Assembly (NCBI GenBank): GCA_026415675.1
Contig: JAOAGQ010000026.1
Span: forward strand, 1-36,973
Reading direction: 5' to 3'
Source of the DNA: Syntrophorhabdaceae bacterium
Lineage (GTDB): Bacteria > Desulfobacterota > Syntrophorhabdia > Syntrophorhabdales > Syntrophorhabdaceae
DNA: 36,973 bases
The notes beneath the pieces were generated by a model that made no database searches, had not been told where the DNA came from, and saw only the letters and a list, made by a program, of their open reading frames with translations. A program made the translations under genes and the position numbers. Below are positions 7,033 through 9,953 of this stretch, one piece after another (position 1 is the first letter of the stretch; each line of letters opens with the position of its first letter).

Positions 7033-7113
7033 ATTAGACAAAAAAATAATAGGTGTTATTAATAATAAAAATGTAGCAAAAAATCTATGTAAAGGGTTGT
7101 GTTAGGGGGTTTG

Positions 7114-7791
7114 ATGCACCATTCGGTGGAACTAAAGGGTGTAGATATTTCCATAGGGGGTCTCCCCCTTCTAAGGGATGTTAACATCGAGGCGATGCCA
7201 TGTGAGATGGTAGCGATAATAGGTGCTAACGGTACCGGGAAGACGACACTTCTCAAGGTGACAAATGGAACATTCAGGCCTGATAGAGGGAAGGTCTATG
7301 TAATGCATCAGGACCTTTTTGAACATAAAAAGCCGGAGGAATTGAGAAAAGAGATAGCGGTCGTCCCGCAGAAATCGAATAGCCTCCGTTTCCCCATAAA
7401 GGTTGAGGATGCCGTTCTTATGGGGAGGTACGGTAAGATAGGGATAATGAGAAGACCAAAGGAGGTTGACCGCTCAAAGGCATATGAGGCAATGAGCTTA
7501 ACAGGGATAACCTCTTTTGCAAAGAGGCTCGTCCACGAACTCTCCGGAGGGGAACAGCAGAAAGTGGCCCTTGCCCGGGCCCTTGCCCAGGAGCCACAGA
7601 TACTCCTCCTCGATGAGCCGACAACCTTTCTCGATGCTCCATCTAAAGCTGAGATTATGGAAACGATACATAATATGCACAGACAGAGACATTTAACGAC
7701 GATCATGGTATCCCACGAGGAGGAATGGGTGAAAAATTATGCAAATAAGGTATACCTCTTGAGAGATAAGGCCTGTTACAGGATAGTTTAG
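7114..7791 (+). CDS. ABC transporter ATP-binding protein (metal/ZnuC-like)
   Basis: A 225-residue ABC ATPase with Walker A GANGTGKT near residues 36-43, the ABC signature LSGGEQQ, Walker B ILLLDEPT and a switch histidine in MVSHEEE. It most resembles the ZnuC/MntB and iron-chelate ATPases. ATG at 7114 is chosen because AGGGGG (7104-7109) lies 4 nt before it; a GTG at 7099 in the same frame lies ahead of that site. It forms a two-gene operon with the substrate-binding protein 33 nt downstream. No membrane permease gene is adjacent, which is odd for such a system. Confidence 0.85.
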   Translation: MHHSVELKGVDISIGGLPLLRDVNIEAMPCEMVAIIGANGTGKTTLLKVTNGTFRPDRGKVYVMHQDLFEHKKPEELRKEIAVVPQKSNSLRFPIKVEDAVLMGRYGKIGIMRRPKEVDRSKAYEAMSLTGITSFAKRLVHELSGGEQQKVALARALAQEPQILLLDEPTTFLDAPSKAEIMETIHNMHRQRHLTTIMVSHEEEWVKNYANKVYLLRDKACYRIV

Positions 7792-7824
7792 AAGTTTTAA
7801 GTCTTAATAGAAGGAGGAACATCA

Positions 7825-8601
7825 ATGAGATTTTTGAGAAGGATTAACGCCTTTTGTTTTCTGTCCTTATGTTTCATGATAGCCATCTCTTCGTATATCT
7901 CTACCCCTGTGTACGGTGGAGATCATATCGTTGTTGCTTCAACATCCTTAACCGGGGCAATCGCCTATGCTGCCGGCGCTAAAGAAGTCCGAATAATCAC
8001 CCCAAACAGTGCAAAGCATCCCCCTGAATACGAATTGGTACCTTCGGATCTTTTAAAGCTCGAAGGGGCAAGTATTGTCGTTTACGCCGGTTATGAAAGG
8101 ATGGTATCGAGGCTTTTGGACACCTCGAAGGATAAGAGGCTCACACCTGTGCAGGTGAATACCGCCATGTCCCCGGAAAACATCATAGAACAGACCCGAA
8201 AGGTGGCAAGGGCGCTGAAGACAGAGGACAGACAGCAGGCCTGGGAGAAATCATTTACGGAAATGTTAAAAAACCTAAGAAAAAGACTGGAACCTTACAA
8301 TGAAAAGAAGGCCGTGGTGCACTTTCATGCCCAGCCTTATGTGAGGTGGGCAGGTTTATCGGTCGTTCAGGTGGTAAATCCAGGGGAGGTTTCCCCTAAG
8401 GCATTGACGGATGCCATTGCCAAAAAGCCGGATATTGTTGTCGATATCCTCCATTTTCCTGTTGCAAAAGACATAGCAATCAATGCAAAGGCCGCCTATG
8501 CCCTTATTATCAATTTCCCTGGGGTGGATGGCACAACGACTATTGACGATGTTTTCAACTACAATACAGAACAGATTTTAAAGGCGTTTAGCGGAAAATA
8601 G
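7825..8601 (+). CDS. Periplasmic metal-binding protein of ABC transporter (ZnuA/TroA family)
   Basis: A 258-residue protein with an N-terminal signal sequence (hydrophobic core at about 9-24, likely cleavage near YGGDH). It has the TroA-type fold order: an SAKHPPEYELVPSDL segment with the first metal-ligand histidine, then VVHFHAQPYVRWAGL with a second histidine. The later acidic or histidine ligands are less clear than in canonical ZnuA and there is no His-rich loop, so zinc is likely but not certain. RBS AAGGAGG precedes the ATG. The gene ends 3 bp from the convergent tonB-like gene. Confidence 0.8.
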   Translation: MRFLRRINAFCFLSLCFMIAISSYISTPVYGGDHIVVASTSLTGAIAYAAGAKEVRIITPNSAKHPPEYELVPSDLLKLEGASIVVYAGYERMVSRLLDTSKDKRLTPVQVNTAMSPENIIEQTRKVARALKTEDRQQAWEKSFTEMLKNLRKRLEPYNEKKAVVHFHAQPYVRWAGLSVVQVVNPGEVSPKALTDAIAKKPDIVVDILHFPVAKDIAINAKAAYALIINFPGVDGTTTIDDVFNYNTEQILKAFSGK

Positions 8602-8604
8602 GTT

Positions 8605-9480
8605 CTAATTCTCCTTCAGGCGAAAGGAGACGGGGAGTTGAATAGCGATATCGTGAATGGGGGTGTTCGTTAGGTTTGCCTTAATTAACGCCTCTTTTGC
8701 GGCACGATCGAGAAGGGCGGAGCCCGAACTTTTTAACACTTTTATATCTTTTATCTTTGCTTCCCTTGTTAGGGTGAAGGAAAGGATAACGGTCCCCTCT
8801 ATCCCCATCTCCCTTGCCCTTTCGGGATATACGAGGCCCTTCAAAACCGCCTCCCTTATAAAACCATAATCCCTTTTGATGTCCATAGTACCACCCCCTC
8901 TCCCTCCACCCCCACCTGATAGCTGATTATCCCTTGATGATACTGAGCTTTGGGGGTAGGAATTAAGGGACGAACCGATTCCTCCTGCGACCCCTTTTCC
9001 TGTGGAAGGGATATTTATGCCCTTCGCCCCTTCGTTATGGAGGGATGTTTCTGCCTTTCCGTAGCCTAAAATCTGTCCTTCCCGAGGATAAGACCCCGCA
9101 ATTACGTCCTGGTGTTCGGTGTTTTTTTGATCTATTGAGGATATCTTCCTCTGCTCTATAGTTTCTTCGATGTTGTTTTTTGTGTTTATGGGGTTAGGGT
9201 CTATTTTTTCCCTAAAGAGGACTTTATCGCCGGCAACATTATTCGCCCCCCTCCCCATCTCTTTTTTCTTTTTAATTTTGCCTTCTTTATCGATTTTATT
9301 TGCTTCTGAATAACCGGTTCCATCTTTCGAGATCACAACCTCAATACTCTCTGGATAAACGTTTCTATTACCTGTATTCAGGAAGGTTAAGAGATAGAGT
9401 ACGACAAAATGGATCAGAAAAGAGACGGTCAAGGCGGAAATTATTTCTTTTATATTGTTGTCTTTAACGGATAAGTTCAT
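8605..9480 (-). CDS. TonB-like energy transducer
   Basis: A 291-residue protein with the TonB plan: a single N-terminal membrane helix (about residues 13-36, SALTVSFLIHFVVLYLLTFL), a long low-complexity periplasmic linker with a glycine run near 190-197, and a C-terminal TonB domain (about 205-291) with VYPERAREMGIEGTVILSFT. It would pass proton-motive energy from ExbB/ExbD to outer-membrane receptors; no exbB, exbD or receptor gene is in this window. Transcripts would carry the cobalamin riboswitch upstream, so it probably serves B12 uptake. Confidence 0.87.
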   Translation of the reverse strand: MNLSVKDNNIKEIISALTVSFLIHFVVLYLLTFLNTGNRNVYPESIEVVISKDGTGYSEANKIDKEGKIKKKKEMGRGANNVAGDKVLFREKIDPNPINTKNNIEETIEQRKISSIDQKNTEHQDVIAGSYPREGQILGYGKAETSLHNEGAKGINIPSTGKGVAGGIGSSLNSYPQSSVSSRDNQLSGGGGGRGGGTMDIKRDYGFIREAVLKGLVYPERAREMGIEGTVILSFTLTREAKIKDIKVLKSSGSALLDRAAKEALIKANLTNTPIHDIAIQLPVSFRLKEN

Positions 9481-9577
9481 CTATTATTTTCCTTAGGCAC
9501 ATACTATATAAAAATTAATCAGATGAGATGGGTCGGTTACGGAAATCCTCCTTATGCCCGTAAGGCGATTTTTAAGA

Positions 9578-9735
9578 ATCCTATCCAAGGTTTCCTGACT
9601 AAGGGGTGATCAAGACGCCTTCCCATCCAAGATTAAGGACAGTGGCCGGTTTTAAACCATGTCTTGCCTTATACCCATCACAGTTGCGGCACAGTGGGAG
9701 ATTTTCACTTCCCTTCCCTTGAAGACAGGATCTAT
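9578..9735 (-). ncRNA. Cobalamin (B12) riboswitch upstream of the tonB-like gene
   Basis: Read on the minus strand, the class hallmarks occur in order: AAGGGAA, then GTGAAAAT with flanking GGGA/TCCC arms, CCGCAACTGTGA (complement of 9678-9689), the B12-box GCCACTG (9640-9646), GGGAAGGC (9617-9624) and AGTCAGGAAACC (9589-9600). ATCCT (9727-9731) and AGGAT (9578-9582) can close a P1 stem. The aptamer points at the tonB-like gene starting at 9480. A hairpin with CCTTA/TAAGG arms at 9550-9565 may belong to the expression platform; no clear terminator was seen. Confidence 0.9.
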
Positions 9736-9744
9736 GGTAACATT

Positions 9745-9772
9745 TTTATCATAGAGGAGTAGAATAAGACAA
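9745..9772 (-). promoter_or_regulatory. Candidate promoter for the riboswitch and tonB-like transcript
   Basis: On the minus strand TTGTCT (complement of 9767-9772) and GATAAA (complement of 9745-9750) are 16 nt apart. Transcription would begin near 9738, just ahead of the aptamer, which is the expected geometry. The match is only moderate. Confidence 0.4.
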
Positions 9773-9880: not shown

Positions 9881-9953
9881 ATTATACCATTAGACCATTA
9901 ATTGATAAAATAAAAGACATAAAAGTCTTTATAACATCTAAAAGGAGAATCCG

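Follow-up and report, generated by a model that had tools for sequence, protein, structure and literature searches.

Regulation by a cobalamin (B12) riboswitch through a leader open reading frame, rather than on the gene itself, has a precedent in the ppe2 riboswitch of M. tuberculosis, for which dependence on an upstream open reading frame (uORF) has been shown (PMC11260477). This element is a proposed Class IIb variant from another phylum, with a longer, gene-overlapping uORF; it shares the idea of acting on a leader frame with a set of six-codon leaders described below for the family Syntrophorhabdaceae, and differs from the tonB leader studied in this work in that the latter lacks the uORF start. 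With regard to tonB, two loci elsewhere in the phylum carry a cobalamin riboswitch, placed directly before tonB-btuF-btuC-btuD in one (L073) and before btuF-btuC-btuD-exbB-exbD-tonB in the other (L074). As in the window (i.e., the whole stretch of 36,973 nt that was analyzed), a TonB of the PF03544 type is found under a cobalamin riboswitch in both, and B12 control of tonB is thus not unique to it; however, in these operons tonB accompanies the B12 ABC transporter, whereas in the window it is alone on its transcript. The kind of switch is therefore already known, and a lone tonB with its own B12 switch is what sets the window apart, an arrangement for which no report was found among the open-access papers searched.

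The closest reference for the window is the B12 switch of the family itself, which we defined by comparing 46 leaders with a conserved hairpin. In these, the aptamer is followed by the near-invariant hairpin CCTTACGAGGNATA[AG]GG, with a 3' arm that extends into the Shine-Dalgarno sequence AAGGAGG, and in 30 of the 46 a longer ORF, mostly btuB, starts directly after both elements (a 39-codon ORF among them belongs to a sister-family genome). Such leaders represent the standard design, with the Shine-Dalgarno hidden by B12. A pattern search across 395 genomes of the phylum located the exact hairpin in Syntrophorhabdaceae and in one sister-family genome only.

In the window, the original prediction had read the hallmarks of a cobalamin riboswitch on the minus strand, upstream of a TonB-type gene, and had proposed a covariance-model search as a check. 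This search (cmscan) returned RF00174 with E 4.3e-13 over model positions 1-189 of 189, above the gathering score of 31.5 bits, a match that covers the whole aptamer, and no other Rfam match was found in the window (Table 1). The tonB aptamer forms 91% of the consensus pairs, compared with a family mean of 95%, and in a maximum-likelihood tree its terminal branch (0.28) equals that of this genome's own btuB aptamer (0.28), which argues against faster evolution than in a copy whose platform is intact. The aptamer is predicted to bind cobalamin.

The TonB-type assignment of the next gene was likewise confirmed: its product matched PF03544 (TonB_C) with 61.1 bits (cut-off, 24.6) and TIGR01352 with 57.7 bits, and its N-terminus provides a membrane segment, a hydrophobic stretch with an S-x3-H pair (S20, H24) that is invariant across ten aligned TonBs of the family. 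Among named TonB records, those most similar to it belong to metagenome-assembled genomes of Syntrophorhabdaceae. No annotatable gene was found between the aptamer and tonB; hence neither of the two outcomes named in the original prediction as refuting it, a failed covariance-model search and an intervening gene, was observed. The leader, predicted at 100 nt, measures 91 nt between the end of the aptamer and the ATG of tonB. An intrinsic terminator was considered as the expression platform and rejected, given that none was found on the minus strand, in agreement with the early view that the platform is not a classic terminator. Since the downstream neighbor at 7825-8601, encoding a ZnuA-like binding protein, is convergent to tonB, the tonB transcript is monocistronic; this neighbor is adjoined by an ABC ATPase gene, both within 7099-8601 (+).

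Table 1. Features of the tonB locus in the window.
Feature	Position	Strand	Basis
Cobalamin riboswitch aptamer (RF00174), complete	9572..9771	-	61.7 bits; conserved core intact
B12 box AGTCAGGAAACCTT	9587..9600	-	Sequence; family alignment invariant except position 3
Candidate promoter TTATCA-16-TATAAT, extended -10, ~110 nt upstream of the aptamer	9881..9908	-	Predicted from consensus match only, 10/12
Hairpin CCTTACGGGCATAAGG, overlapping SD1; probable ligand-controlled expression platform (P13-like)	9550..9565	-	Comparison of 46 family leaders
SD1, AAGGAGG; in relatives, located ahead of the btuB start codon	9547..9553	-	Family comparison
GTA where relatives have ATG or GTG, at equal offset from the hairpin	9538..9540	-	Family comparison
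GTA frame, possible leader ORF, with TAA stop on the tonB Shine-Dalgarno	9493..9540	-	Open frame
TAAGGA, Shine-Dalgarno of tonB itself	9490..9495	-	Sequence
tonB, 291 aa, sole PF03544 TonB found in the genome	8605..9480	-	Profile matches

The genome searched, that of the window itself, comprises 2.56 Mb in 75 contigs and is 99% complete. Two cobalamin riboswitches were identified in it, one before tonB and a stronger one (73.9 vs. 61.7 bits) before btuB-btuF-btuC-btuD on contig C1. A single TonB_C match was found in the genome, namely the window tonB, and a single TonB-dependent receptor with a Plug domain, the btuB of this operon, the B12 receptor BtuB being the only TonB client found. An extra PF00593 match was evaluated as a second receptor candidate and discarded as a TPR fusion lacking the plug; this gene (G000:C48:3655-4380, L175) encodes TPR repeats joined to a TonB-receptor-like beta-barrel. 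Since the sole plug-bearing receptor is BtuB and one TonB was found, the outer-membrane Ton pathway appears to be devoted to B12, and separate riboswitches precede the receptor and the transducer. Most members of the family have more than one receptor, and no cobalamin riboswitch was found within 1.5 kb of the other tonBs of the family (29 loci). Near a tonB homologue in one relative, at a distance of ~1 kb, an nhaA-I riboswitch candidate was observed (RF03057, 47.4 bits; L050, 485-543, minus strand).

Regarding the energizing motor, the genome yielded one ExbD match and three MotA/ExbB matches, of which one is a flagellar MotA (NCBIfam), another lies on contig C48, and the third pairs with ExbD. 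The best scores of this pair are to TolQ/TolR, just under both cut-offs, and a TolA-like gene follows it (motor operon at G000:C72, 562-2516; L009). In this genome, whose completeness of 99% leaves room for a missed pair, no dedicated ExbBD pair distinct from TolQR was found, nor any ExbBD partner under B12 control. The search for a BtuB-type receptor and ExbBD suggested in the original prediction hence recovered the receptor, behind a riboswitch, and only a TolQR-like pair in place of the motor. TonB is probably energized by this pair or shares it; interchange between ExbB and TolQ is on record in the passage of PMC3831626 that cites Braun (1989).

The leader of tonB matches the standard btuB switch, found in the btuB operon of this genome and in most family members, in its aptamer, B12 box, hairpin and Shine-Dalgarno as well as in their order and spacing. 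Nevertheless, it departs from this switch in that the hidden Shine-Dalgarno is not followed by a start codon, in that the hairpin loop has one base fewer than the family CCTTACGAGGNATAAGG, and in the identity of the gene, tonB, which starts 60 nt beyond the canonical start position with its own Shine-Dalgarno. The sequence that the hairpin hides is thus SD1 and not the Shine-Dalgarno of tonB; because no start follows SD1 and the tonB Shine-Dalgarno lies further on, direct sequestration of the tonB ribosome-binding site by the hairpin is ruled out for the locus as assembled, and the sequence does not establish direct riboswitch control of tonB translation. Other contacts in the leader were evaluated. 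A hairpin predicted over the tonB start was no better than expected, 31% of shuffled sequences being as strong; pairing between the hairpin 5' arm and the tonB Shine-Dalgarno, present in the minimum-energy fold, is not claimed, because the folds were no more stable than those of shuffles; and a leader peptide starting at the 9504 ATG was rejected, as no Shine-Dalgarno precedes it. Two further leaders, both from one genome (L168 and L173, genome G010), keep the conserved hairpin and lack a start codon where the family usually has it, as in the window.

The comparison of leaders also revealed a second arrangement. In 13 of the 46 (L114, L115, L118, L149, L151, L152, L154, L155, L159, L163, L164, L170 and L171), a uORF of exactly six codons is located behind the hidden Shine-Dalgarno, just after the B12 box. 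By chance, the first stop would fall on precisely that codon with a probability of ~0.04 per leader. The encoded peptides differ among leaders (MRPEDP, MRNDPP, VRNKPS, MRHHYP, MKPETS, which occurs twice, MKYHYP, VNPIPP, MRSEDP, MKQNPT, MRYHYP, MNLKYP and MKHNPA), and 11 of the 13 carry proline within their final two residues. These leaders occupy four places in the tree, and a single origin is not contradicted by well-supported branches. The gene, which begins 45-160 nt after the uORF, is btuB, a metE-like ORF or a GntR-type regulator, as named by eye from the translations. Regulators of the GntR type follow the riboswitch in L114 (with a thyX-like ORF behind), L149, L152, L159 and L164, and a TetR-like ORF lies downstream in L118, where the assignment is doubtful; a GntR-type regulator is an unusual target for a B12 riboswitch and may tie B12 status to another pathway.

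In several uORF leaders a hairpin covers the Shine-Dalgarno of the gene itself, and in 5 of the 11 leaders computed the ribosome-binding region of the gene resisted opening more than in nearly all shuffled versions of the gap (≤3% of which were as hard). Placing a ribosome on the uORF lowered the opening energy in all 11, although some lowering is expected from masking alone. The modeled energies suggest a relay from riboswitch to uORF to gene. A second kind of platform can tentatively be proposed on this basis, in which the switch would hide the Shine-Dalgarno of the six-codon uORF, a ribosome on the uORF would free that of the gene, and the tonB leader would be a derived form; we hold this to be possible, though on the doubtful side, and the same reserve applies to its corollary that the tonB leader start is non-canonical or was lost. 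The tonB leader itself has no six-codon uORF, since its start position reads GTA and the nearest TGA misses the required register by one base, and may be a degenerate or altered member of such a relay.

Considering these findings together, we regard a working cobalamin OFF switch for the only TonB of the genome as the likely explanation of the locus. The aptamer, the hairpin, SD1, tonB, the gene order and the genome inventory are read directly from the sequence. At low B12, the hairpin after the aptamer would open and leave SD1 free for ribosomal subunits to load on the leader; the loaded leader, together with the tonB start region, would be kept open, or translated, and TonB would be made. 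With B12 bound, the aptamer would stabilize the hairpin and hide SD1, and the output of tonB would fall together with that of btuB-btuF-btuC-btuD, under its own copy of the switch. Plentiful B12 would in this way shut down the whole Ton pathway, which is conceivable because BtuB is the only plug-bearing receptor found. We infer ligand binding, the direction of the switch and, most of all, the step that links SD1 to a tonB start so far beyond the expected start codon. Speaking against this explanation are the missing start codon behind SD1, the lost loop base, the hairpin over the tonB start that does no better than shuffles, and the lack of a nearby cobalamin riboswitch at the other 29 tonB loci of the family. 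Given that the riboswitch is real, TonB comes next with nothing between, and btuB has its own riboswitch, B12 control of the transducer in addition to the receptor is the natural reading. This claim of the original prediction is thus supported in part: two switches were found in the genome, but SD1 turned out not to belong to tonB; repression of tonB by B12 would still be the probable outcome.

A contrasting explanation is that the switch is vestigial, the aptamer and hairpin still folding, perhaps, with the link to tonB broken and tonB expressed constitutively from its own Shine-Dalgarno. The loss of the start codon, the loss of a loop base and the TGA out of register all fall inside one 40-nt stretch, and the tonB copy scores below the btuB copy, which speaks for decay. 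Against this, the aptamer core, its pairing and the SD1 hairpin have been retained, and the branch does not exceed that of the btuB copy in length, so we find a vestigial switch rather unlikely. The remaining readings concern how a working switch might reach tonB, and the confidence assigned to them overlaps with that in the OFF switch, since both are sub-forms of it. SD1 could drive a short frame that ends on the tonB Shine-Dalgarno, a proposal we would entertain only tentatively; it requires GTA to serve as a weak start or to be a GTG misread in the assembly, which we likewise take as a possibility and not as an expectation, and its output would come, with no greater assurance, either from termination-reinitiation or from a leader ribosome that keeps the tonB start open. 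The GTA is found exactly at the start position, its frame stays open for 16 codons (GTA + 15) and stops on the tonB Shine-Dalgarno 12 nt before the ATG, and a real uORF occupies the same place in 13 leaders of the family. On the other hand, such an open frame has a chance of ~0.25, the six-codon length was not kept in the tonB leader, and GTA is not known to serve as a start codon. Elsewhere, dependence of a B12 riboswitch on a uORF is proven in the case of ppe2 in M. tuberculosis (PMC11260477).

The other sub-form invokes transcriptional polarity: with SD1 hidden, the leader would be free of ribosomes and Rho would stop transcription in the C-rich, G-poor segment at 9546-9512, before tonB. 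This stretch, TTTCCGTAACCGACCCATCTCATCTGATTAA, is pyrimidine-rich, and an intrinsic terminator is absent; however, it is short, and Rho sites are not reliably recognizable from sequence, for which we consider polarity improbable.

The tonB switch makes sense as a new example of a switch already known. If it operates as proposed, a cell with BtuB as its only plug-bearing receptor would place the transducer under the same vitamin as the receptor operon while regulating the two separately, and would offer a clear-cut natural example of a single-substrate Ton system governed by one ligand. A more surprising by-product of this work is the set of six-codon uORF leaders in Syntrophorhabdaceae: the comparison of leaders points to a family of riboswitches for which a minimal uORF may be the means of action, and this would widen the known expression platforms.
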